This document shows positions 11,196-22,183 of a DNA stretch of 35,825 nucleotides, one piece after another. Source of the stretch: Comamonadaceae bacterium (lineage in GTDB: Bacteria; Pseudomonadota; Gammaproteobacteria; Burkholderiales; Burkholderiaceae_C); the NCBI GenBank assembly GCA_947381325.1, contig CANCUP010000010.1:1-35825 (forward strand). Reading direction: 5' to 3'. Under the pieces are notes generated by a model. That model had not been told where the DNA came from and did no database searches. It worked only from the letters and a program-made list of their open reading frames with translations. Within the stretch, counting starts at the first letter, position 1, and the number at the start of each line of letters is the position of its first letter. The position numbers were made by a program, and so were the translations under genes.

Positions 11196-11257
11196 CAAGA
11201 CCCCAGGGTTATCCCCAGTGACTTAAAACTATCCAGTTCGTACATTACAGGGTCTTG
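11196..11257. promoter_or_regulatory. Inverted repeat in the TetR-TRAP gap
   Basis: CAAGACCC at 11196-11203 is repeated in inverted form as GGGTCTTG at 11250-11257, 46 bases apart, in the 84-bp gap between the TetR stop and the TRAP small permease. It could be a long-loop hairpin or a pair of half-sites for a looping repressor. No convincing -35/-10 pair was identified. The functional meaning is inference. Confidence 0.35.
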
Positions 11258-11277
11258 TGTTCTTGGAGCCATGTCAG

Positions 11278-11817
11278 ATGCTGACAAAACTGATCTCTGC
11301 ATATTGCCGCATGCTGGAAGTTGTGATTGCGGCTTGCCTCGCCGTGATGGTGGTGCTCGTGTTTGGCAATGTGGTGCTGCGCTACGCATTCAATTCAGGG
11401 TTGACGGTCTCCGAAGAGTTGTCGCGCTGGCTGTTTGTGTGGATGACTTTCTTGGGCGCCATCGTGGCCATGAAGGACGGCGCGCATTTGGGCTCAGACA
11501 CCTTGGTCTCCAAACTCTCCGTGCGTGGACAAAAAGCATTCTTGGTCATTGGCCATGTGTTGATGCTCTTCATTTGCTGGCTGTTGTTTGTGGGCTCGTT
11601 GAACCAAGCCCTCATCAACTGGGAATCCAACAGCCCTGTGATGGAGTTGTCCATGGGCTTGTTTTACGGATGCGGCATGGTGTTAGCGGTCTCAGGCGCA
11701 CTGATCTTGATCGACCGCTTGCTGCGACTGATGACGGGCAAGTTAGAAAACAACGAATTGATTGGGGTGCGAGAGTCTGAAGAAGAGCCCATCGATGTGC
11801 CAGCGCCGCTGAAATAA
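11278..11817 (+). CDS. TRAP transporter small permease (DctQ family)
   Basis: 179 residues from the ATG at 11278, preceded by GGAG at 11264-11267; an in-frame codon at 11257 is less likely. Four hydrophobic segments are visible (VVIAACLAVMVVLVFGNVVL, the LFVWMTFLGAIVAM region, the AFLVIGHVLMLFICWLLFVG region and the GMVLAVSGALILID region). The family motif is seen in NVVLRYAF and SEELSRWLFVW. It forms the membrane complex with the large permease encoded next. It starts the transport part of the cluster and is followed after 15 bp by the large permease. Confidence 0.9.
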   Translation: MLTKLISAYCRMLEVVIAACLAVMVVLVFGNVVLRYAFNSGLTVSEELSRWLFVWMTFLGAIVAMKDGAHLGSDTLVSKLSVRGQKAFLVIGHVLMLFICWLLFVGSLNQALINWESNSPVMELSMGLFYGCGMVLAVSGALILIDRLLRLMTGKLENNELIGVRESEEEPIDVPAPLK

Positions 11818-11832
11818 GAGGAACTCACCGTC

Positions 11833-13110
11833 ATGACAATTGCCGTATTTTTAGGCTCCTTGTTGGCCGCCATGGCCTTGGGTGTGCCCATTGCGTTCGC
11901 CTTGCTTTTGTGCGGCGCAGCACTCATGTTTCACATGGACATGTTCGATGCGCAAATCTTGGCGCAAAACGTGATCGAAGGCGCCAACAGTTTTCCACTG
12001 CTGGCTGTGCCGTTCTTCATGCTGGCCGGCGAAGTGATGAACACGGGGGGCTTGTCACGCCGCATCGTTGACTTTGCCATGGCCTTGGTGGGCCACATCC
12101 GGGGTGGTTTGGGCTATGTGACGATCGTGGCGGCATGCTTGCTGTCTGCGCTGTCGGGTTCGGCCGTGGCCGATGCCGCTGCACTCACGGCTTTGCTGTT
12201 GCCCATGATGGTAAAGGCGGGTCATGACAAAGCCCGCAGTGGCGGCTTGATTGCAGCTTGCGGGGTGATTGGCCCCATCATTCCGCCATCGATTGGCTTT
12301 GTGATTTTTGGCGTGGCTGGCAACGTCTCGATCAGCAAATTGTTTTTGGCTGGAATTGTTCCAGGCATCGTGCTGGCGGCGGGCTTGTGGGCCACTTGGT
12401 GGTGGCTGACACGCCGGGAGGTCTTGACACCGCCGCCACGAAAATCCACCGCTGAAGTGTTCGCAGCCATGCGAAGTGCCGGGTGGGCCTTGATGTTGCC
12501 ACTCATCATTTTGGTGGGCTTGCGCATGGGCGTGTTCACACCGACAGAAGCAGCCGTGGTGGCCGCCGTGTATGCCTTGTTTGTGGCGGGTGTGATTTAC
12601 CGTGAATTGACTTGGGGCCAGCTGTTTCAGGTGTTCCAAACGGCCGCAAAAACAACCGCTGTGATCATGTTCTTGGTCGCGGCTGCGATGGTGTCTGCAT
12701 GGCTGATCACGGTGGCGAATTTGCCATCCCAGGTGGTGTCGTTGCTGGAGCCTTTGCTGGGCAATCCCACGTTGCTGCTGATGGCCATCATGGTTTTGTG
12801 CATGATCGTTGGCACTGCGATGGACATGACCCCCACCATCTTGATCTTGACGCCGGTGCTCATGCCCATCGTCAAGGCAGCAGGCATTGACCCCGTGTAC
12901 TTCGGCGTGCTCTTCATCATCAACAACTCCATTGGGTTGGTCACCCCGCCTGTAGGCACGGTGTTGAACGTGGTGGCGGGTGTGGGGCGCATGCGCATGG
13001 ATGAAGTCACGCGGGGTGTGGTGCCCTTCATGGCGGTTCAGTTCTTTGTCATGTTCTTGATGGTGCTGTTCCCATCCCTGGTGATGGTGCCAGCGCGTTG
13101 GTTCTATTGA
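11833..13110 (+). CDS. TRAP transporter large permease (DctM family)
   Basis: 425 residues and highly hydrophobic, with about 12 predicted membrane segments. It is the ion-coupled translocation subunit of a TRAP carrier. Typical DctM features include the GVPIAFALLLCG start, the FFMLAGEVMNTGG segment, the SGSAVADAAAL loop and the IIPPSIGFVIFG hairpin, with a repeated NNSIGLVTPPVGTVLN in the second half. RBS-like GAGGAA lies at about 11818-11823. It sits 15 bp after the small permease, with the binding-protein gene starting 89 bp after its stop. Driven by a sodium gradient in characterised relatives. Confidence 0.95.
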   Translation: MTIAVFLGSLLAAMALGVPIAFALLLCGAALMFHMDMFDAQILAQNVIEGANSFPLLAVPFFMLAGEVMNTGGLSRRIVDFAMALVGHIRGGLGYVTIVAACLLSALSGSAVADAAALTALLLPMMVKAGHDKARSGGLIAACGVIGPIIPPSIGFVIFGVAGNVSISKLFLAGIVPGIVLAAGLWATWWWLTRREVLTPPPRKSTAEVFAAMRSAGWALMLPLIILVGLRMGVFTPTEAAVVAAVYALFVAGVIYRELTWGQLFQVFQTAAKTTAVIMFLVAAAMVSAWLITVANLPSQVVSLLEPLLGNPTLLLMAIMVLCMIVGTAMDMTPTILILTPVLMPIVKAAGIDPVYFGVLFIINNSIGLVTPPVGTVLNVVAGVGRMRMDEVTRGVVPFMAVQFFVMFLMVLFPSLVMVPARWFY

Positions 13111-13199
13111 GTTTGAAAGCGCCGCTTGCATGGGTACGCCAAGCGGTGTTGAGAAAAGTTTTTAGCGTACGACCTCAACTTCAATCTGGAGACTTTGTC

Positions 13200-14204
13200 A
13201 TGAAACGTTTTTTTATCAAATCAGTGGTGGCTGCTGTCGCCTTGGTGGCTGCCGGCAGCACCTTGGCGCAAGACATCAAAGAGCGGACGCTGAAATTTGG
13301 CTTGAATGGGCCTGAAGGCCACCCAGCCGTGGTGGGCATGAAGGCATTTGCCGAGTCAGTGACAGCCAAGTCGGGCGGCAAGATCAAGGTGCAATTGTTT
13401 TTGAACGGCGCGCTCGGCAGCGACCAAGCCGTGGTGTCATCCATCAAAGGCGGCACCGTGGAAATGGCCGTCATGAACTCAGGCATCTTGGCCAGCGAAG
13501 TCAAAGCCCTCGAGGTGTTTGACTTTCCCTTCATGTTCTCCAACGAGAAAGAAGCCGACGCGATTGCCGATGGCCCGATAGGTCAAAAAATGCATGCCAT
13601 GTTGCAAGACAAAGGCATCGTGGGTTTGAGCTACTGGGAGCTGGGGTTTCGCAGCATCACCAACAGCAAGCGTCCCCTGAACAAAGTAGAAGACATCGAG
13701 GGTTTGAAACTGCGCGTGATCCCCAACGCCATCAACGTCGATTGGGTGAAAGCCTTAGGCGCCAACCCCACCCCACTGCCGTTCCCAGAGGTGTATGCCG
13801 CCATGGAGCAAAAAGCCATCGATGGTCAAGAAAACCCAGTCTCTGTGATTGCTGCCAATAAGTTTTGGGAAGTGCAGAAATTCGTCATCTTGACCAACCA
13901 CCAATACAACCCACAGTCGGTGATCTTCAGCAAAAAAGTGTGGGACAGCCTGAGCGCCGCTGAGAAGAAAATCATCGACGATTCCGCCGATGCAGCCGCC
14001 AAAAACCAACGCGCTCAATCGCGTGCTGCCTTGGCGGCCAACCTGGAACTGCTCAAGAAAAATGGCATGACTGTGTCGCAGTTTTCAGCCGCTGAAGTGG
14101 CCAAGCTGCGCGACAAAATGAAACCTGTCATCGACAAGCACAGCGCCGCAGTGGGCCCCATCGTGGCCGAAGTGCAAGCTGAGTTGGCCAAGCTGCGCAA
14201 ATAA
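13200..14204 (+). CDS. TRAP transporter substrate-binding protein (DctP family)
   Basis: Periplasmic substrate receptor, 334 residues from the ATG at 13200 (GGAG at 13188-13191). A longer frame from 13098 overlaps the permease and lacks a signal sequence, so it was not chosen. Sec signal MKRFFIKSVVAAVALVAAGS ends in TLAQ. The conserved ligand-carboxylate arginine of DctP proteins is expected at Arg172 (GLKLRVIPN), with FPEVYAAMEQKAIDGQENP matching the family's downstream signature. The neighbouring AroQ and AroE-like enzymes suggest a hydroaromatic carboxylate such as quinate, shikimate or 3-dehydroquinate as ligand (inference). Confidence 0.93.
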   Translation: MKRFFIKSVVAAVALVAAGSTLAQDIKERTLKFGLNGPEGHPAVVGMKAFAESVTAKSGGKIKVQLFLNGALGSDQAVVSSIKGGTVEMAVMNSGILASEVKALEVFDFPFMFSNEKEADAIADGPIGQKMHAMLQDKGIVGLSYWELGFRSITNSKRPLNKVEDIEGLKLRVIPNAINVDWVKALGANPTPLPFPEVYAAMEQKAIDGQENPVSVIAANKFWEVQKFVILTNHQYNPQSVIFSKKVWDSLSAAEKKIIDDSADAAAKNQRAQSRAALAANLELLKKNGMTVSQFSAAEVAKLRDKMKPVIDKHSAAVGPIVAEVQAELAKLRK

Positions 14205-14221
14205 ACACGCGCACAATGTGG

Positions 14222-14251
14222 CAGCGGGCCAATGAATGCCCGCTGTTATTT
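14222..14251 (+). terminator. Hairpin between the TRAP binding-protein gene and aroQ
   Basis: An 8-bp perfect stem, CAGCGGGC (14222-14229) with GCCCGCTG (14238-14245), has an 8-base loop and is followed by TTATTT. It may partly terminate transcription or protect the 3' end of the abundant binding-protein mRNA while lowering aroQ expression. Confidence 0.55.
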
Positions 14252-14272
14252 CATCCAAGACCCGAGACCGCT

Positions 14273-14719
14273 ATGAAAATTTTGATGCTCAACGGAATCA
14301 ACCTCAACATGTTTGGCAAGCGTGATCCTGCCCAATATGGCACCACCACGCTCGATGAAATCAATGCCAGCATGAAACAGCTGGGTGCTGAGTTGGGTGT
14401 TGACGTCGAGTTCTTCCAAACCAACCACGAAGGTGCAATGTGTGAGCGCATTCACCAAGGGTTTTCAGACAACGTGGATGCCGTCTTGATCAATGCAGGT
14501 GCCTGGACCCATTACAGCTATGGCATTCGGGATGCCTTGGCCATCTTGACCTGCCCCATCATTGAGGTGCACATGTCCAACATCCATGCGCGAGAGGCGT
14601 TCCGCCACCACTCGGTGTTTGCCGAAATTGTGAAAGGGCAAATCTGTGGCTTTGGGGCCGACAGCTATTTGCTGGGCCTGCGTGCGGGCGTGACTGCCGC
14701 GAAGAACGCGAAGAAATAA
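14273..14719 (+). CDS. aroQ: Type II 3-dehydroquinate dehydratase
   Basis: Interconverts 3-dehydroquinate and 3-dehydroshikimate; 148 residues, the standard size of the type II dodecameric enzyme. Catalytic-site motifs are NGINLNMFGKRDPAQYG, with Asn10, Arg17 and catalytic Tyr22, then NAGAWTHYSYGIRDAL and EVHMSNIHAREAFRHHS with the catalytic His. Some usually fixed positions differ (Pro to Ile in NGPN, Tyr to Trp in GAYTH), so it is probably not the main biosynthetic copy. The start at 14273 is chosen because MKILMLNG is the canonical opening; the upstream frame to 14216 is unlikely. Location between a TRAP transporter and an AroE-like gene suggests a catabolic role. Confidence 0.92.
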   Translation: MKILMLNGINLNMFGKRDPAQYGTTTLDEINASMKQLGAELGVDVEFFQTNHEGAMCERIHQGFSDNVDAVLINAGAWTHYSYGIRDALAILTCPIIEVHMSNIHAREAFRHHSVFAEIVKGQICGFGADSYLLGLRAGVTAAKNAKK

Positions 14720-14725
14720 CCCACC

Positions 14726-15553
14726 ATGATCACCGGCAACACCGACATCATTGCCCACATTGGCTACCCCACGCACAGTTTCAAGTCCCCCATGATTTAC
14801 AACCCGTACTTTGAACAGGCGGGAATCCATGCCGTGGTGGTGCCCATGGGCTGCCAAGCACCGGACTACCCCGCCTTTTTAAAGGCCGTTTTCACGTTGA
14901 CCAACATCCGAGGCGCCTTGATCACCATGCCCCACAAGGTGACCACCGTGGGCTTGTTGGACGAGGTCACTGCCACCGTCAAAGTGGCCGGTGCTTGCAA
15001 CGCGGTGAAACGCACAGAGGATGGCCGCTTGGTAGGCGACATGTTCGATGGCGCAGGCTTTGTGCGCGGCGTGCAACGCAAGGGGTTGAACCTGCAGGGT
15101 GCACGCGTGCTGGTGGTGGGCAGCGGGGGCGTGGGGTGCGCCATTGCTGCATCTTTGGCGGGCGCAGGCATCGCAGCCATCAGCTTGTTTGATGTCAACA
15201 CGGCCTCTGCCGAGGGCTTGGGTCGGCGCTTGAAACAACACCATCCCCACATTGACGTGACCACGGGATCGAACGATCCCGCAGGTTTTGATTTGGTGGT
15301 CAACGCCACGCCCATGGGCATGAACGAAGGCGATCCTTTGCCGATGGATGTGTCGCGTTTGTCGCCAGACACCTTTGTGGGCGAGGTGGTCATGCGCTCC
15401 GACATCACCGCATTCTTGGCGGCAGCGCAAGCGCGCGGCTGTCGTGTGCAAGTGGGCTCAGACATGCTGTTTGAGCAAATCCCTGCCTACTTGGAGTATT
15501 TTGGTTTTCCCACGACCACGGCCGACAACCTGCGTGCGGTGGCCCAGCTTTGA
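14726..15553 (+). CDS. Divergent shikimate/quinate dehydrogenase family protein (AroE-like)
   Basis: 275 residues in two domains. The N-terminal substrate domain keeps the catalytic Lys71 (ITMPHK), Asn92 (AGACNAV) and Asp108 (FDGAGF). Their 21 and 16 residue spacings equal E. coli AroE Lys65, Asn86 and Asp102. The nucleotide domain has VLVVGSGGVGCAIA and NATPMGM. Several pocket residues are changed: the first serine of the SxSP motif aligns with Phe19 (THSFKSP), the NTD triplet before the catalytic Asp is MFD, and the YNPxxT motif reads MRSDIT. NAD(P)-dependent oxidation of a shikimate- or quinate-like substrate is likely, but the exact substrate may differ. It starts 6 bp after aroQ, so it shares its mRNA. 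Confidence 0.82.
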   Translation: MITGNTDIIAHIGYPTHSFKSPMIYNPYFEQAGIHAVVVPMGCQAPDYPAFLKAVFTLTNIRGALITMPHKVTTVGLLDEVTATVKVAGACNAVKRTEDGRLVGDMFDGAGFVRGVQRKGLNLQGARVLVVGSGGVGCAIAASLAGAGIAAISLFDVNTASAEGLGRRLKQHHPHIDVTTGSNDPAGFDLVVNATPMGMNEGDPLPMDVSRLSPDTFVGEVVMRSDITAFLAAAQARGCRVQVGSDMLFEQIPAYLEYFGFPTTTADNLRAVAQL

Positions 15554-15782: not shown

Positions 15783-16262
15783 ATGAAGAACTTCGCGGCT
15801 GCTGTTGTATTCATGCTGACATGCATTGGGCAAGGCGCAGCCCATGCCCAGAGCGGTCAATGCGGCTTCATCCACGACCCTAACCTTCAAGCGCAGTGCC
15901 GGGCCAACACCGGCGGTGGCGCGGGCCAGTGTGGGTTCATACGAGACAACGACATGCAAGCCTATTGCCGCGCCACCACCGGTTCGGGCAGCGGGCAATG
16001 TGGCTTCATCCGAGACAACGACTTGCAGGCCATGTGTCGTGCCACCAGCGGCATGGGCTCCGGTCAGTGCGGCTTCATCCGCGACAGCGACATGCAGGCC
16101 TATTGCCGCGCATCCACAGGCAGTGGCAGCGGCCAATGTGGGTTCATTCGCAGCAATGACTTGCAGGCCATGTGCCGAGCCTCGACGGGAGGTGGTTCAG
16201 GGCAGTGCGGCTTCATCCGCGACGCAGACATGCAGGCGGCCTGCCGCGCCAAGTTTGGGTAA
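15783..16262 (+). CDS. Secreted cysteine-rich tandem-repeat protein (unknown function)
   Basis: 159 residues. A Sec signal peptide (about 1-22, ending AHA) is followed by six head-to-tail repeats of 23 residues (the last cut to 20) from residue 25 to the end. The consensus is GQCGFIRDNDxQAxCRAxTG plus a short Gly/Ser spacer. Each repeat has two cysteines at positions 3 and 15 (C-x11-C), giving 12 cysteines in the mature protein, and the acidic/basic IRDND and CRA motifs are nearly invariant. A strong RBS (GAGGGG) precedes the ATG. No enzyme motif is visible. Each unit is probably a small disulfide-bonded helical hairpin in the periplasm or outside the cell. I do not recognise a named family. 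Confidence 0.85.
   Translation: MKNFAAAVVFMLTCIGQGAAHAQSGQCGFIHDPNLQAQCRANTGGGAGQCGFIRDNDMQAYCRATTGSGSGQCGFIRDNDLQAMCRATSGMGSGQCGFIRDSDMQAYCRASTGSGSGQCGFIRSNDLQAMCRASTGGGSGQCGFIRDADMQAACRAKFG
15855..16259 (+). repeat. Six tandem 69-bp coding repeats
   Basis: Units start at 15855, 15924, 15993, 16062, 16131 and 16200 (the last is 60 bp). All keep the reading frame and encode GQCGFI at the start. At protein level odd units carry Leu and even units Met before QA, and units 2 and 4 share MQAY while 3 and 5 share LQAM. This suggests growth by duplication of a two-unit block of 138 bp. Confidence 0.93.
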
Positions 16263-16316: not shown

Positions 16317-17333
16317 TCACTTGTATTTGCGAACCAAGCCGGCGTAGGTGTCGAAAGCGCCTTTGGCGGCCGCATTTTTGTTGATGATCTCGGTGGCCGT
16401 TTGGTTCACGGTTTTCGAGAAGGTGGCGGCATCGTCGGCCGACAAGCTGATCATTTGGCCCCCGTTTTGGGTCCACACATCGCGCGAGCGTGTGATGTCT
16501 TGCACGCCAAACTCATTGGCAGCCGCTTCGGACTTGGCGGCCTCTTCCATCACGATGGCGCGCAGGTCAGCCGGCAGCTTGTTGAGCCAAGCCTTGTTGC
16601 AAGCGATCACCACAATCAAGGGCCACTGGGGCAATTGTGTTTGGTACTTGGCGGCGTCGTAAAACTTGAGCGCAGAAAACACCGTGCTGGCTGCAATGAA
16701 TCCGTCGATGGCACCGTTTTGCAAGGCAGGCATGACTTCAGACAAGGGCATGGGGACGGGCGAGCCACCCAGCTTTTTGATCGGCTCCATTTGCAAGGGC
16801 GTGCTGAGCACCCGAATTTTTTGGCCATTCAAATCCGCCAAGCTTCGGATGGGTTTGCGCGAGACTAAGTTTTGTGGGCTGTGCATGAACACTGAAATGC
16901 TTTCAATGCCTCGGTTGCCACCAAAGCTGAAAATCAGCTTGCGCATCTCTGGGTCTTGAAAGGCCTTGACGGCATGCGCGGTGTCGTTGATGACGCCAGG
17001 CACATCAAACACTTCAAAGCGTGGGTCTAAGCTGGTGAGAAAACTCGACGCGGTGGCAAAGCACTCTATCGTGCCCATGGCCGTGCCCTCCACCATGCGG
17101 GGGATGGCGCCCAATTGGCTGGCTGGATACAGCTCCACCTTGATGCGGCCTGCGGTGCGGCTTTCGACCGCCGCTTGAAACGACTTCATCCAAAAATGCT
17201 GCACATCGTTGATAGTGGCCGCTGCAACCTTCATCACGATTTGGTTTTGTGCGTTGACCTGCAGCAAGGGGCCGGCGGCGACCGTGCCCGCTGCCAGTGA
17301 CAGCAAGTTGCGGCGTGAGAGGCGTGTGTTCAT
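16317..17333 (-). CDS. TRAP transporter substrate-binding protein (DctP family), Tat-type signal
   Basis: 338 residues. The N-terminus MNTRLSRRNLLSLAAGTVAA has a twin-arginine SRRNLL motif, so export may be by Tat as a folded protein; cleavage is expected after VNA. The body matches DctP receptors: GRIKVELYPASQLG, the carboxylate-binding arginine expected at Arg174 (GQKIRVLS) and the signature PMPLSEVMPALQNGAIDGF. It is the last gene of a minus-strand operon (monooxygenase, small permease, large permease, binding protein), 30 bp after the large permease. The neighbouring gamma-resorcylate decarboxylase suggests an aromatic carboxylate ligand such as 2,6-dihydroxybenzoate (inference). Confidence 0.93.
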   Translation of the reverse strand: MNTRLSRRNLLSLAAGTVAAGPLLQVNAQNQIVMKVAAATINDVQHFWMKSFQAAVESRTAGRIKVELYPASQLGAIPRMVEGTAMGTIECFATASSFLTSLDPRFEVFDVPGVINDTAHAVKAFQDPEMRKLIFSFGGNRGIESISVFMHSPQNLVSRKPIRSLADLNGQKIRVLSTPLQMEPIKKLGGSPVPMPLSEVMPALQNGAIDGFIAASTVFSALKFYDAAKYQTQLPQWPLIVVIACNKAWLNKLPADLRAIVMEEAAKSEAAANEFGVQDITRSRDVWTQNGGQMISLSADDAATFSKTVNQTATEIINKNAAAKGAFDTYAGLVRKYK

Positions 17334-17363
17334 GGTTGTCTCCTGTTGTGATGTGGGAAGGTC

Positions 17364-18638
17364 TCAATAAATCCAGCGCACCATGGCCAGCGACAGCCAA
17401 GGGATGTATGTGATCAGCGCCAACGCGATCAGGTAGAGGTAAATGAACGGCACGATGCCCCGGTAAATCACGGGCAGCGGAAAGCGAAACAGCGATTGGG
17501 TGACAAAGATGTTCAACCCAAACGGTGGGTGAAACATGCCAATGGCCAAATTGGTGGTGATGACGATGCCAAAGTGGACCGGGTCAATGCCCGCCGCTTT
17601 GACCAAGGGCATGAGCAGAGGCGTGAGCACCAAGATGGCCGACAAGGGGTCGATGAAGCAGCCCACCACCAAAAACAGCACATTCAGAGCAAGCAAGATC
17701 ATCCAAGGCGAGAGCTGCCAGCCGCTGACCACATCCACCAAGGTGGCGGGTATTTGGTTGACCGTGAGCAGCCAGCCAAACACATTGGCGCAGGCCACGA
17801 TCAGCAAAATTTGGGCAGTCAGGATGACGGTGCGCGAGGCACAGCCCACGATGTCAGACCAGCTCATGTCCTTGTAAACAAAGCGCGCCACAAAGGCGGC
17901 ATACACACAGGCCAGCGCGGCTGATTCGGTGGGTGACACAAAGCCACCATAGATGCCGCCCAGGATGATGAAAGGCGCGCCCAGTGCCCAGGTGCCGCCC
18001 GCCAGCGCGTGCAGAAATGCAGGCAAGGAGAACGGGTGCCCATCAGAGATGTTGAGCTTGCGTGCCACCCACACCACATACACGGCCAAGATGGCGGCAA
18101 TCACCAAGCCAGGAATGACGCCCGCGGCGTACAGCTTGGGCACTGACTCTGAGGCGGCGGCGGCATAGATGATGAGTGGCACCGAGGGCGGAATGATGAT
18201 GTCGATGGCGCCTACGGCGGTGATCAGGCCGGCGCGAAAGGTGTCGGGGTAGCCGCGTTCTTTGAGGGGCGGCAGCATCAATTGCCCCACGGTGGCCACC
18301 GTGGCTGCGCTGGCGCCAGACATGGCGCCAAAGATGGCCGCTGTTCCCACGGTGGTCAAGGGCAGGCTGCCACGCACCGAGCCGATGCCCGATTGCAGGA
18401 TGTCGACGATGCGTTTGGCCACACTGCCACGACCCATCAGCTCACCCGCGAAGATGAAGAATGGAACCGACAGCAGCGCAAAGCTGTCCACGGCGCCAAA
18501 CATCGTTTGGTGCAAGGCCGTGAGCGGCACATGCATCACGAACAACACGGTGACGGCCGAAGCACTGAGCAGCACCAAGAAGATGGGCATGCCCAGCAGC
18601 AACAAGACCACGGGGAGAAGAGCGAGTGTGTAGGTCAT
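17364..18638 (-). CDS. TRAP transporter large permease (DctM family)
   Basis: 424 residues with about 12 hydrophobic segments. DctM features are LLSVPFFIFAGELMGRG, the SGASAATVATVGQL loop and the IIPPSVPLIIYAAAASESV hairpin. The C-terminal NLAIGMFHPPFGLNIF corresponds to the second hairpin, where most relatives have a TPP element. The start overlaps the stop of the small permease by 4 bp (ATGA at 18635-18638 on the minus strand), showing translational coupling. It is the translocation subunit of the transporter in the gamma-resorcylate cluster. Confidence 0.95.
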   Translation of the reverse strand: MTYTLALLPVVLLLLGMPIFLVLLSASAVTVLFVMHVPLTALHQTMFGAVDSFALLSVPFFIFAGELMGRGSVAKRIVDILQSGIGSVRGSLPLTTVGTAAIFGAMSGASAATVATVGQLMLPPLKERGYPDTFRAGLITAVGAIDIIIPPSVPLIIYAAAASESVPKLYAAGVIPGLVIAAILAVYVVWVARKLNISDGHPFSLPAFLHALAGGTWALGAPFIILGGIYGGFVSPTESAALACVYAAFVARFVYKDMSWSDIVGCASRTVILTAQILLIVACANVFGWLLTVNQIPATLVDVVSGWQLSPWMILLALNVLFLVVGCFIDPLSAILVLTPLLMPLVKAAGIDPVHFGIVITTNLAIGMFHPPFGLNIFVTQSLFRFPLPVIYRGIVPFIYLYLIALALITYIPWLSLAMVRWIY

Positions 18639-19189
18639 GCGTGCGTAGAAGAACCGAGGCGCTGCGCGAGCAGGGTTTTGAGTTCAAGAAGGCTGCACAG
18701 CAGCATGCCGACAAAGCCGACGACCACGCTGAGGTGCGGCAGCCACATCGGAATTTCTGCGGCGTCGCTTTTTTGCTCCATGGTGTAGATCTGGTACGTG
18801 AAGTCTGCAGAGACCCCAACCATCAAGGCGCATGCGCCCAGCATCAGCAAGGCTTCGCCCAGATGGCGCCACCAAGCCCAGCGAGGGCTCAGAGACGCGG
18901 TGAGCACGTCCATGCGCAAATGCGCGCGTCGCATGGCAGCGATGGCCGCACCCACAAAGATCAACCAAATCATGGTGAACACTTGCACTTCGTCGGCGCC
19001 AAGGATGGGTGTGCCAGCCGCGTAGCGACCCGCTGCGCTGGCAAAGTTGAGCAACACCACCAGGATGAAGACCACGCCCGAGATGCGTTCGAGACGGTCC
19101 AACAAGCGATGAAAGCCCAGCGTGTGCGGGGGGTCTTCAGGGGCCGCTGCCGCAACTGGGGTGGAACTTACCTCGGGGTGCTCAGTCAT
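18635..19189 (-). CDS. TRAP transporter small permease (DctQ family)
   Basis: 184 residues. An Ala/Pro-rich cytoplasmic N-terminus (about 1-30) is followed by four hydrophobic segments, including GVVFILVVLLNFASAAGRY and FTMIWLIFVGAAIAAMRRAH. The last resembles the W-F--A-G----R--HL signature of the family. It pairs with the large permease through a 4-bp overlap and lies 60 bp downstream of the monooxygenase gene, so all four minus-strand genes probably form one transcript. Confidence 0.9.
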   Translation of the reverse strand: MTEHPEVSSTPVAAAAPEDPPHTLGFHRLLDRLERISGVVFILVVLLNFASAAGRYAAGTPILGADEVQVFTMIWLIFVGAAIAAMRRAHLRMDVLTASLSPRWAWWRHLGEALLMLGACALMVGVSADFTYQIYTMEQKSDAAEIPMWLPHLSVVVGFVGMLLCSLLELKTLLAQRLGSSTHA

Positions 19190-19249
19190 ATGTCATTCTA
19201 AAAAATGGTGGCGCTCAGCGCATTCGCGTGTTGGCGGTATGGGCCAGGT

Positions 19250-20521
19250 TCAGTACTGGCCTTTGGGTTCGAGGCCGAGGTGGTATTGCCCCACCATGGA
19301 GGAGACAGCATCCCAGTTCAGGCTGATGTGGCGCGCGATCATGTTGGCATCGCGCCACATGCGCTGAAGCGGTTGGTCCAGCATCAGCCCGCCGCCCCCA
19401 ACGCTCGAAAAAAGCCCGTCCACCGCCTGAAGGCACAACTTGGTGGAGAAGGCATGGTCACGTCGGTTGCGAATGCGGGTGGGCACATCGATGATGGTGT
19501 TGGAGGCGGCCATTTGCTCGACCTCTGTGGTGTCGCGGTAGAGCAGCAGCCGCGCTGCATCGACCGACGCATAGGCCTCTGCCAAGCGCGACTGGACGGG
19601 AAAGAACTGGCTCAGGCGGTTGCCGCCGCCGGCCACCGCACCTCGGGTCACGCGGGTGCCGCAAAGCTCTTCAAACACTTCAATGGCACCTTGGGCATTG
19701 CCGAGCATGGGCGACGCCAAGCACACGGGCACAGCCGACAGAAACGGGATGCGGTAGATGGGGTTGGGGTTGACGGCTGCACCCGGTGGGTTGTTCGACG
19801 AGGCCTCGGCAAAGGTGAGCCGCCGATGGGCTGGCACAAACACTGGGGCGTCAATCGCCACTGTTTTAGAACCGGTGCCGGCTTGGCCCATCACGTGCCA
19901 GTTGTCTTCGATGCGCCAATCCGCGCGTGGCACCAACACAAATCCGGCCCCAGGTGAGACACCGCCTGGTTCATCAGGAGGGAACACCACGCCCAAGAGT
20001 GCCCAGTCGGAGTTGTCCACGTTCGAGGCCCAGTGCCACTGGCCTTGAACGGTGTAGCCGCCTTCCACCTTTTCGGCGTGTGCTGCGGGTGCGTACGAGC
20101 CACACATGATGGCGTTGGGGTTCTCGCCCCACACATCTTGCTGAGCCTGCTCAGGGAATGTGCTCAGCGCCCATTGGTGGATGGCGCCCAGCGAGCAGCC
20201 CCAGGCCGATGAGGCGCAGCCTCGCCCGAGCTCGCTGATGACTTCAATGAAGGCGGTGAAGCCGTATTCGTAACCACCAAAGCGCGCGGGTTGCATCAAT
20301 TTGAAAAAACCAGCGTCTCGGAACATGTCGGTGGTCTGGGACGACACGCGGCGGTCTAGTTCGGTTTGGCGTGCCTGTTCGCGCAACATGGGCACCATGT
20401 GTCGTGCAGCATCGGCAATCTGCGTGATGGAGGGCGCACCCGCCACTGGGGAGACGCGACCGGGCGCGTCAAACGGCACGGGGGGAAAGGCCGAGGCGAG
20501 GGGGAATGGATCGCGGTTCAT
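19250..20521 (-). CDS. Group D flavin-dependent monooxygenase (acyl-CoA dehydrogenase fold), candidate resorcinol hydroxylase
   Basis: 423 residues. The fold-typical segments of HsaA/HpaB-C2-like oxygenases are visible: FRDAGFFKLMQPARFGGYE near the N-terminus, the central CASSAWGCSLGAIHQW helix, the beta-domain WHWASNVDNSDWALLG and WHVMGQAGTGSKTV, and the C-terminal DGLFSSVGGGGLMLDQPLQR with MWRDANMIARH. These enzymes use reduced flavin from a separate reductase to hydroxylate phenols. Next to a gamma-resorcylate decarboxylase, the economical reading is resorcinol to hydroxyquinol hydroxylation, like GraD of Rhizobium. No reductase gene is present in the window. It heads the TRAP operon and is divergent from a MarR gene. 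Family is certain, substrate is inferred. Confidence 0.85.
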   Translation of the reverse strand: MNRDPFPLASAFPPVPFDAPGRVSPVAGAPSITQIADAARHMVPMLREQARQTELDRRVSSQTTDMFRDAGFFKLMQPARFGGYEYGFTAFIEVISELGRGCASSAWGCSLGAIHQWALSTFPEQAQQDVWGENPNAIMCGSYAPAAHAEKVEGGYTVQGQWHWASNVDNSDWALLGVVFPPDEPGGVSPGAGFVLVPRADWRIEDNWHVMGQAGTGSKTVAIDAPVFVPAHRRLTFAEASSNNPPGAAVNPNPIYRIPFLSAVPVCLASPMLGNAQGAIEVFEELCGTRVTRGAVAGGGNRLSQFFPVQSRLAEAYASVDAARLLLYRDTTEVEQMAASNTIIDVPTRIRNRRDHAFSTKLCLQAVDGLFSSVGGGGLMLDQPLQRMWRDANMIARHISLNWDAVSSMVGQYHLGLEPKGQY

Positions 20522-20544
20522 GCGCTGGCTCCTTGGCGGTCGTT

Positions 20545-20564
20545 GGGTGACAGCACCGTCACCC
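20545..20564. promoter_or_regulatory. Candidate MarR operator palindrome
   Basis: GGGTGAC-AGCACC-GTCACCC is a perfect 7-bp inverted repeat with a 6-base spacer. It sits 23 bp upstream of the monooxygenase start, in the 161-bp gap shared with the divergent MarR gene. Position and size fit a MarR-type operator; it could also form an RNA hairpin in the leader. The rest of the gap is AT rich. Confidence 0.5.
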
Positions 20565-20682
20565 GATAGAGATGAATTAAATGTGCAAACGCAGATAAAT
20601 AAATCGGGGACTTACCCTTAAGCACGAGGGGATAGACTGATACGATATTTCCACACAAACAAACGCTGGCGCAAGTGAAACC

Positions 20683-21126
20683 ATGAGGCACGACCTGCAA
20701 GAATCTATCCCCTATTTGCTTGCAAGAGCAGGTATCAGGACGGGTCAGGCGTTCACACAAGAGCTCAAGCAGCACAAGCTCACACTCAACGAGTGGCGGG
20801 TGTGCGCCACCTTGCGGCACCAGCCCTCTCAGCGCATTGGGGAGGTGGCAAACCACACCTCCATCGATGCCTCGACTTTGTCGCGCTTGATCGACGCCAT
20901 GATCAAACGCAAGTTGGTGGTGCGCGAGCGCGACAGCGTGGATGCACGCGCGCGCTCCTTGCATCTCACACCCAAGGGCGAAGAGGTGGTGGACCGTGTG
21001 ATTCCTCTGGCGCAACTGTATGAGCGGGTGGCCTTGGCCGGCATGAGCCGCGAGGAGGCGCAGGCCTTGCGCGGCTTCTTGGCGCGCATTTACGACAACA
21101 TGGACATGCTCAACCAACGCGATTGA
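20683..21126 (+). CDS. MarR family transcriptional regulator
   Basis: 147 residues, the standard MarR size. The winged helix-turn-helix covers about residues 30-100: LTLNEWRVCATL, the QRIGEVANHTSIDASTLSRL recognition region, then the wing with RERDSVDARARSLHLTPKG. Helices at both ends would form the dimer. It is transcribed divergently from the monooxygenase-TRAP operon and convergently with the gamma-resorcylate decarboxylase gene. In the Rhizobium gra cluster a MarR-type protein (GraR) occupies a comparable position as far as I recall. It is most likely a repressor released by an aromatic ligand. Confidence 0.9.
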   Translation: MRHDLQESIPYLLARAGIRTGQAFTQELKQHKLTLNEWRVCATLRHQPSQRIGEVANHTSIDASTLSRLIDAMIKRKLVVRERDSVDARARSLHLTPKGEEVVDRVIPLAQLYERVALAGMSREEAQALRGFLARIYDNMDMLNQRD

Positions 21127-21143
21127 GGTTGGGGCTGCGGGCC

Positions 21144-21181
21144 AAAGAAAACCCGCCGAAGTCAACCAAACTTCAGGCGGG
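21144..21181 (-). terminator. Intrinsic terminator of the gamma-resorcylate decarboxylase gene
   Basis: The stem has CCCGCC/GGCGGG plus GAAGT/ACTTC with one bulged base (21152-21162 with 21170-21181) and a 7-base loop. Read on the minus strand it is followed by TTTTCTTT (21151-21144), 21 bases after the decarboxylase stop. It separates that gene from the convergent MarR gene. Confidence 0.75.
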
Positions 21182-21202
21182 CAGGGCGTTGTGGACGCTC
21201 GA

Positions 21203-22183
21203 TCAGATCTTCAACTTGAACAGATCGACGGCGTTGGTGCGCCCAATCTTGAGGCGGTCGGCTTCGCTGATGCTGGCCGCATCGAACCAGTTGCAGGCGT
21301 GGTCCACATTCTCGAATGGCCAGTCGGTAGAGAACAAAACGCGGTCGGCGCCAATTTCCATCATGGCGTCGATCAAGGTTTGTGTGCGGAAGTTGCCCGA
21401 GGTGGTGAGCCAGAAGTTTTGCTGGAAGTAGTCAGACAGTGGTTTTTTGGCGGGGTAGCTCTTGGGGGCTTTGACCCAGCCGTTGCGGTTGTCGACGCGC
21501 CACATGTTGAAGGGCAGGCCTTCGCCCAAGTGGCCGAGCACGATCTTCAAGCCGGGATGGCGGTCAAACAAACCACTGGCCATCAAGCGCAAGGCGTGCA
21601 CCGCTGTTTCTTGGGCAAATGCCCAGGTGGGGCCCATCAGCCAAGGGTGACCGTTGTAGATCTGGGCCCACGACGAAATCGGGTTGCGTGGGTGCAAGTA
21701 AAACGGCGCATCGAGTTGTTCGGCTTTGGCCCAAAAGCCTTCGTACTGAGGCGCGTCGTAATAGACCACGTTCTCAGGCGTGTCGATTTGCGAAAAGCCA
21801 TTGACCAAGGCGCCGCGAAAGCCGTAGTCCTTCATGCAACGCTCCAGTTCTTGCGTGGCCGCGTCGGGGTCTTGCATGGGCAAGGCGGCAAAGCCCTGAA
21901 AACGATTCGGACGCAAAGCCACTTGCTCGGCCAAAAAGTCATTGGCGCGTTTGGCCATCTCAATGGCTTGGCTGCGGTTGTGGATGGCTTGGATGGCGGG
22001 TGCGTTGAGCGACAGGATCATCATCTCCATGCCGTTGTCGTCCATCTCACGCAGACGCCGCTCTTGCATGTCGATCAAGCGGGCGCTGAGTTCGGTCCAG
22101 CTTTCGTCGGCGAGAAAGCCCGCCGAGTCTTGCAGGGTTTCTGGGGTCGCAAAGTGTTCTTCTAAGCCAATTTTTCCTTGCAC
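21203..22183 (-). CDS. graF: Gamma-resorcylate (2,6-dihydroxybenzoate) decarboxylase, amidohydrolase superfamily
   Basis: 326 residues, one less than the Rhizobium enzyme as I remember it. Reversible non-oxidative decarboxylation of 2,6-dihydroxybenzoate to resorcinol. The zinc/manganese ligands known for that enzyme fall at identical positions here: Glu8 and His10 (GLEEHF), His164 (FYLHPRNP) and Asp287 (FSTDWPFEN), with the catalytic His218 (GHLGEG). Long stretches such as GPTWAFAQETAVHALRLMAS match the family. The start is GTG at 22183, with an ideal AGGAGA six bases upstream. Other ACMSD-like decarboxylases (salicylate, 5-carboxyvanillate) are less likely because of this close residue match. 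Confidence 0.88.
   Translation of the reverse strand: MQGKIGLEEHFATPETLQDSAGFLADESWTELSARLIDMQERRLREMDDNGMEMMILSLNAPAIQAIHNRSQAIEMAKRANDFLAEQVALRPNRFQGFAALPMQDPDAATQELERCMKDYGFRGALVNGFSQIDTPENVVYYDAPQYEGFWAKAEQLDAPFYLHPRNPISSWAQIYNGHPWLMGPTWAFAQETAVHALRLMASGLFDRHPGLKIVLGHLGEGLPFNMWRVDNRNGWVKAPKSYPAKKPLSDYFQQNFWLTTSGNFRTQTLIDAMMEIGADRVLFSTDWPFENVDHACNWFDAASISEADRLKIGRTNAVDLFKLKI

Follow-up and report, generated by a model that had tools for sequence, protein, structure and literature searches.

A predicted gamma-resorcylate catabolic module with an adjoining TRAP transporter in a Comamonadaceae bacterium

How does a bacterium apparently equipped to degrade 2,6-dihydroxybenzoate (gamma-resorcylate) bring this acid into the cell? 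The question is raised by contig CANCUP010000010.1 of a Comamonadaceae bacterium (assembly GCA_947381325.1), in which genes for a gamma-resorcylate decarboxylase (GRD), a flavin-dependent oxygenase and a MarR-family regulator lie beside those of a tripartite ATP-independent periplasmic (TRAP) transporter. The stretch analyzed, hereafter the window, is the entire contig of 35,825 bases (contig C10 of genome G000 in our survey), and the 3.06-Mb assembly is rated 88.9% complete. The window decarboxylase is 94-100% identical to the decarboxylases in four other congeneric genomes, including that of Limnohabitans sp. JirII-31, and the host is probably a Limnohabitans-type freshwater bacterium. From genome context, the best reading, to which we give a probability of roughly 0.6, is that the locus is a catabolic module for 2,6-dihydroxybenzoate and that its TRAP transporter imports this acid.

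The decarboxylase gave its best matches among PDB sequences to the solved gamma-resorcylate decarboxylases 2dvt from Rhizobium (533 bits, E 2e-159) and 3s4t/4qro from Polaromonas (519 bits, E 6e-155), whereas other solved enzymes scored lower, with 298 bits for 2,3-dihydroxybenzoate decarboxylase 6m53, 238 bits for salicylate decarboxylase and 171 bits for 5-carboxyvanillate decarboxylase. It is also 73% identical to a Rhizobium hidalgonense protein annotated as tsdA, gamma-resorcylate decarboxylase, and 73-80% identical to the decarboxylases at comparable loci. A preliminary description of this DNA, made from the sequence alone, had recognized the enzyme by residues Glu8, His10, His164, His218 and Asp287; all five were found, and they are invariant in 13/13 aligned decarboxylases. 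The accessible part of one structural study gives Glu8, His10, His164 and Asp287 as the metal ligands of 4QRO, and His218 was not found in that part (PMC8187880). The metal and catalytic residues alone would not distinguish a gamma-resorcylate decarboxylase from related decarboxylases, but full-length similarity does: because the score is 533 bits to 2dvt against 298 to 6m53, the protein is assigned as a gamma-resorcylate decarboxylase, with predicted activity on 2,6-dihydroxybenzoate. NCBIfam returned no family for it at E <= 0.001, and Pfam placed it in Amidohydro_2.

The oxygenase had been described as a group D flavin monooxygenase, which Pfam/NCBIfam and its PDB relatives confirmed. It is related to HsaA and C2-HpaH, and with 336 bits against an HsaA cut-off of 450 it is not HsaA itself. 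When 16 GRD-locus oxygenases were placed in one tree, rooted by midpoint only, together with 14 of 19 paralogs from the genus, all 16 fell on one side of a branch with a support of 98/97, and the Rhizobium-type oxygenase formed a deep branch inside this group (the rows of Rhizobium and G103 are long). Since all 16 lie on that side, the window oxygenase is placed with the GRD-linked oxygenases rather than with the general pool of its genus. By analogy with the known gra cluster, it is a probable resorcinol hydroxylase that would convert resorcinol to hydroxyquinol. Together with the MarR gene, these two genes make up the gra/tsd core, and the pairwise distances of GRD, oxygenase and MarR are correlated (r 0.88-0.91 over 14-16 loci). 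The identity of the enzymes, the recurrence of the core and the grouping of the oxygenase thus bear out the gamma-resorcylate module proposed earlier.

The genes for DctP, DctQ and DctM are all present together, giving a complete TRAP set by Pfam/NCBIfam. On the minus strand, the oxygenase gene is followed after 60 bases by dctQ, then by dctM with a 4-base overlap and, after a further 30 bases, by dctP (Table 1). All six open reading frames (ORFs) of the preliminary description are intact at the positions given there, and their families were confirmed by Pfam/NCBIfam and PDB sequences. The MarR gene, described as divergent beside the decarboxylase gene, is indeed divergent from the oxygenase gene but is convergent with that of the decarboxylase. 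The latter stands behind a same-strand UvrD/Rep-type helicase gene, and AGGAG precedes its start codon. No gene for a flavin reductase, a hydroxyquinol dioxygenase or a maleylacetate reductase was found at the window locus, a lack on which the preliminary description is silent.

Table 1. Positions of the module genes and associated regions in the window
Feature	Position	Strand	Basis
Gamma-resorcylate decarboxylase (TsdA/GRD type, amidohydrolase superfamily; GTG start)	21203-22183	-	PDB sequence search, Amidohydro_2, 13-way alignment, residues
MarR-family regulator	20683-21126	+	Pfam/NCBIfam; identity to MarR at other clusters
MarR/oxygenase intergenic region, with near-unchanged block 20604-20622 (-)	20522-20682		Alignment of 4 orthologous loci; candidate regulator site
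Group D (acyl-CoA-dehydrogenase-fold) flavin monooxygenase, oxygenase component; probable resorcinol hydroxylase	19250-20521	-	Pfam/NCBIfam, PDB (HsaA/HpaH relatives), tree
Oxygenase-dctQ junction; flavin reductase and LysR genes here in JirII-31	19190-19249	-	Comparison with sister strain
TRAP small permease DctQ	18635-19189	-	PF04290
TRAP large permease DctM	17364-18638	-	TIGR00786 above cut-off, PF06808
TRAP solute-binding protein DctP, twin-arginine motif, Arg174 (family's invariant arginine)	16317-17333	-	Pfam/NCBIfam, alignment, model

To place the locus among its relatives, we surveyed 84 genomes of the genus, the window's own included, and found GRD in 10 of them at E <= 1e-90. The core is accompanied by a TRAP transporter in four of the 10 (the window, G065, G005 and G049) and by a branched-chain-type ATP-binding cassette (ABC) system in three (G036, G041 and G081), which form a second line of the genus. 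The G070 contig breaks off shortly after the MarR gene, so that its transporter class cannot be judged. TRAP accompanies the module in 4/4 assessable genomes of the window's line, and the other 80/84 gave no match to it at E <= 1e-60; an ortholog of the binding protein at this threshold occurs in 4/84 congeneric genomes, every time at the GRD locus. The gene order is therefore shared beyond the single strain. The hypergeometric value for 4/4 TRAP genomes falling among 10 GRD genomes of 84 is 1.1e-4, which we do not use as a probability, the genomes being related. In the second line (stretch 4885-17000 of L041 in G081, and L038 and L039), the oxygenase-GRD pair is followed by genes for a VOC protein, a cytochrome P450 and the ABC system, and on its other side stand a GMC oxidoreductase gene and a second amidohydrolase gene; these extra genes perhaps handle a methoxylated or larger precursor.

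Outside the genus, a family sample of 399 genomes, own genome included, contained GRD at E <= 1e-120 in four, again counting our own. With at most five candidates scored per genome, an ortholog of the binding protein (E <= 1e-60) was found in 1/399, the window's own. In a separate sample of 399 genomes from the taxonomic order, own genome included, 10 genomes had a binding-protein match at E <= 1e-30. A major facilitator superfamily (MFS) carrier stands beside the core in Rhizobium, Variovorax, Cupriavidus and two loci from other genera (G170 and G464), and in Pusillimonas noertemannii the core stands with a branched-chain-type ABC system sharing 36-48% identity with that of the second genus line. 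The oxygenase tree joins Pusillimonas (ABC) to Cupriavidus (MFS), whereas the decarboxylase tree joins it to the ABC line of the window's genus (support 0.84). Transporter class thus does not follow the tree simply, the two trees differ on Pusillimonas, and we claim no number of swaps. These data reveal a recurring core with three transporter classes, MFS, ABC and TRAP, the TRAP variant being limited to one line in the samples searched. The recurrence of the core with different transporters, a TRAP system among them in the window's line, favors uptake of 2,6-dihydroxybenzoate or a closely related phenolic acid through TRAP but does not prove it.

The binding protein DctP carries Arg174, the ligand arginine of its family, which is invariant in 20/20 aligned DctP rows. 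In the accessible text of two papers, this conserved arginine is described as crucial for ligand binding in TRAP proteins (PMC5812351) and is tied to the substrate carboxylate (PMC4646407). The twin-arginine signal pointed out earlier is present as the motif SRRNLL (residues 6-11), its RR kept in 4/4 orthologs, window included, but it is not unusual in this family, as the solved DctP chain 5im2 is named 'Twin-arginine translocation pathway signal'. The predicted model of DctP is good (predicted local distance difference test score, pLDDT, 89.4). Fold comparison was rejected as a means of naming the ligand, because the DctP proteins that it matched bind a variety of ligands.

The nearest other binding proteins are 34-46% identical and come from other Burkholderiales loci rather than GRD loci, four of them from one genome, G652; no relative above 46% was found outside the window's line in the samples searched. 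Among plasmid records, 1121 matched, each below 60% identity (25-28% among the 25 matches listed), and no close relative was found. From the surroundings of the 34-46% relatives, 10 proteins in six of seven stretches were picked by eye and put through Pfam, no genes being taken from the short contig L119. Five of the 10 bear on aromatics: a ring-hydroxylating Rieske subunit, a VanA-type Rieske protein encoded immediately after one related binding-protein gene, a UbiD decarboxylase close to a full TRAP set at one relative's locus, and two Amidohydro_2 proteins. The other five have no clear aromatic link, comprising an NMT1/phosphonate-binding protein (L116), a glyoxalase (L117), a TctC protein (L118), and a cupin and an NMT1-like protein (L120). 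The aromatic genes near related binding proteins are suggestive only of an aromatic ligand.

The preliminary description laid weight on the oxygenase gene being followed directly by the TRAP genes, a joining that now looks derived. In JirII-31, a flavin reductase gene (its product 60% identical to a Variovorax protein) and a LysR gene stand between the oxygenase gene and dctQ, LysR alone stands there in G049, and neither gene is present in the window and G065. Compared with JirII-31, about 20 bases upstream of dctQ and its first codons still match in the window (34 and 46 aligned bases, 79 and 83%), the oxygenase end matches at 89-91%, and the remainder is unrecognizable. At gra loci of other genera, relatives of the sister strain's LysR (57-58% identity) and of its flavin reductase are both found; loss of the two genes in the window's sub-line is therefore the simpler reading. 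With two genes in between in the sister strain, adjacency itself was rejected as proof of TRAP-oxygenase coupling. Given the absence of a flavin reductase gene at the locus, the oxygenase would depend on reduced flavin from another reductase.

The known counterpart of this locus is the gra cluster of Rhizobium sp. MTP-10005, whose gene order is reportedly graRDAFCBEK and which is represented here by Rhizobium hidalgonense (NZ_CP054029). Common to both are the decarboxylase (73%), the group D oxygenase (45%) and the divergent MarR (39%). The Rhizobium cluster has an in-line flavin reductase, maleylacetate reductase, hydroxyquinol dioxygenase and YciI together with an adjoining MFS aromatic acid/H+ symporter, whereas the window locus lacks these genes, has TRAP instead, and carries an oxygenase from another branch of the same group. 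Also comparable are the Variovorax/Cupriavidus-type gra loci (L013, L015, L016, G170 and G464), which share with it the decarboxylase (77-82%), the oxygenase (64-73%) and MarR (52% for that of Variovorax SRS16), and which have a flavin reductase and a LysR related to those of sister strain JirII-31, LysR not being seen in Cupriavidus. They differ in having hydroxyquinol dioxygenase and maleylacetate reductase at the locus, and MFS rather than TRAP. Overall, the core stands with these two lower-pathway enzymes in Rhizobium, Variovorax paradoxus, Cupriavidus and three genomes of other genera, one of which (G103) has no MarR match. The window thus holds the upper part of the gra/tsd pathway and is a transporter-swapped variant of the known cluster, with enzymes of known kind. 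On plasmid 3 of Variovorax SRS16 (L013, 14194-14508), the annotated maleylacetate reductase is no more than a 104-residue piece; that of Variovorax paradoxus SPNA7 is full length.

A TRAP carrier joined to the oxygenase had been regarded as an unusual uptake route for a dihydroxybenzoate, but TRAP uptake of aromatic acids has published precedents. TarPQM of Rhodopseudomonas palustris takes up aromatic acids, its binding protein TarP binding several phenylpropenoids according to the accessible text (PMC3610893), and a TRAP transporter for benzoate derivatives from Chae and Zylstra (2006) is known through the available passages of citing papers (PMC5812351 and PMC6362003). As far as these sources go, both resemble the window in that the TRAP system is encoded or used with aromatic-acid catabolic genes, and the TarPQM locus also has an ABC system for the same ligands. 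The likeness to the window is one of gene context. In the literature searched, which covered the field in part and included few subscription papers, no TRAP transporter was named for 2,6-dihydroxybenzoate.

We propose that DctP would bind the carboxylate in the periplasm via Arg174 and pass it to DctQM for import by ion symport. Next, the metal-dependent decarboxylase would convert 2,6-dihydroxybenzoate to resorcinol, and the two-component flavin oxygenase, supplied with reduced flavin by a reductase encoded elsewhere, would convert resorcinol to hydroxyquinol, whose ring may be opened by a hydroxyquinol dioxygenase likewise encoded elsewhere. MarR may repress the genes until the substrate or a product binds. 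In this scheme, the TRAP ligand, the oxygenase product and the regulation are inferred.

In the region between the MarR and oxygenase genes, the block at 20604-20622, upstream of the oxygenase gene, is nearly unchanged across four aligned orthologous loci and is a candidate regulator site. The block is not repeated elsewhere in the window, and a search for inverted repeats of at least 8 bases found none. A promoter scan gave 0 sites against 1.8 expected and a terminator scan 7 against 8.6 expected.

Next to the module lies a second TRAP set (DctQ, DctM and DctP, 30-37% identical to the first) at 11257-15553, convergent with the resorcylate TRAP genes and accompanied by genes for a class II dehydroquinase and for a protein with a shikimate-dehydrogenase N-terminal domain. 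This stretch resembles a unit for the uptake and breakdown of quinate/shikimate-type compounds, and the JirII-31 locus is also adjoined by a related TRAP set and a shikimate-dehydrogenase-like gene. Between the two TRAP units of the window, a short ORF at 15783-16262 has a signal-like start and, by eye, a cysteine-containing motif of about 22 residues that is present six times; its Pfam matches to ArfA and zf-DPOE cover only 14-15 residues and were not taken as real.

The lower pathway shows a gap. With the Variovorax paradoxus hydroxyquinol dioxygenase as the query, matches away from the GRD locus were found at 63-64% identity in G005, G049, G065 and G070, at 58% in G069 and at 48-51% in G036, G037, G041 and G081. 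In our own 88.9%-complete assembly, no ortholog was found (best match 40%), perhaps owing to incompleteness. A maleylacetate-reductase query found orthologs (62-77%) in 3/3 genomes of other genera and none in the 10 congeneric GRD genomes (G000, G005, G036, G037, G041, G049, G065, G069, G070 and G081), of which six had partial matches of 31-38% and four no match at E <= 1e-10. Six of these 10 genomes are less than 90% complete, while G005 is rated 100%, G081 99%, and G036 and G049 96%. NCBIfam names the own genome's best match as a 4-hydroxybutyrate dehydrogenase, and the gap in the genus is unexplained. On one strand of contig C31 of G069 (L101, 7785-12940), about 5 kb hold two CoA-transferase subunit genes, a 3-hydroxyisobutyrate-dehydrogenase-family gene and a hydroxyquinol-type dioxygenase gene, along with a gene that by eye resembles a Bug/TctC-type binding protein; this dioxygenase-linked group is a candidate replacement for maleylacetate reductase. 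It is possible, although we hold it only tentatively, that the Limnohabitans line degrades 2,6-dihydroxybenzoate by a pathway of high affinity, served by the first TRAP transporter for this acid, and that a non-orthologous enzyme or another route closes the hydroxyquinol branch in the genus.

Besides these two missing lower-pathway orthologs, several observations weigh against TRAP import of 2,6-dihydroxybenzoate as part of a gamma-resorcylate pathway. A dedicated flavin reductase is not encoded at the window locus though it is in JirII-31, and the only match in the own genome (43%, contig C42) lies beside a luciferase-type monooxygenase gene. In two congeneric genomes rated 88% complete, G037 and G069, GRD was found but the oxygenase search gave nothing at E <= 1e-60, so that GRD does not always mean a gamma-resorcylate pathway. 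The four TRAP genomes are one lineage and not four independent events. The structural neighbors of the DctP model include binders of C4-dicarboxylates, isethionate and sialic acid, among others. As the accessible text reports, TarP, the best-studied aromatic TRAP protein we saw, did not bind 4-hydroxybenzoate (PMC3610893). In Vibrio natriegens, candidates chosen because they lay near protocatechuate genes or resembled known carriers, namely two TRAP systems and three other carriers, were deleted with no detectable defect in uptake or growth, according to the available part of that study (PMC13253662).

Some of these observations fit other explanations. The transporter may import other aromatic acids or a broader range of them, such as phthalate-type acids or further hydroxybenzoates, as general nutrients for the cell; 2,6-dihydroxybenzoate would then be a minor ligand, or the cell would make it from a precursor. 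We give this a minority chance: the nearest binding-protein relatives come from non-GRD loci, some near Rieske, VanA-type and UbiD genes, TarP binds several phenylpropenoids in the text available (PMC3610893), and the P450, VOC and GMC genes beside GRD in the second genus line hint at precursors, but within the genus the binding protein (E <= 1e-60) is found only at the GRD locus. It is unlikely that the TRAP system is an accidental neighbor carrying a sugar acid or a dicarboxylate, since it shares the strand of the oxygenase gene, follows that gene after 60 bases in the window and at a short distance in G065, and accompanies the module in all four assessable genomes of the line, while no match at E <= 1e-60 was found in the other 80. 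Even so, a second TRAP cluster with dehydroquinase and shikimate-dehydrogenase genes adjoins it, C4-dicarboxylate binders are among the structural neighbors, the LysR gene between the oxygenase unit and TRAP in JirII-31 and G049 means that TRAP could have been a separate unit, and context-based TRAP candidates failed the deletion test in Vibrio natriegens, as far as the accessible text goes (PMC13253662). Least probable, and very doubtful in our view, is that the decarboxylase and the oxygenase have another phenolic acid as their substrate, such as one of the 2,3-dihydroxybenzoate or salicylate type. The failure to find a maleylacetate reductase ortholog in the 10 GRD genomes and the two genomes with GRD but no oxygenase match would suit such a pathway, whereas the scores to solved gamma-resorcylate decarboxylases (533 and 519 bits, against 298 and 238) and the company of the core with hydroxyquinol dioxygenase and maleylacetate reductase in the other genera oppose it.

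If a gamma-resorcylate module with TRAP import of 2,6-dihydroxybenzoate is the right reading, one catabolic core is associated with three unrelated transporter classes, MFS, ABC and TRAP, and a substrate assignment for an uncharacterized DctP subfamily becomes testable. The missing maleylacetate reductase would point to an unrecognized enzyme or route in a central aromatic pathway. The same reading would suggest scavenging of low-concentration resorcylates by planktonic bacteria in fresh water.

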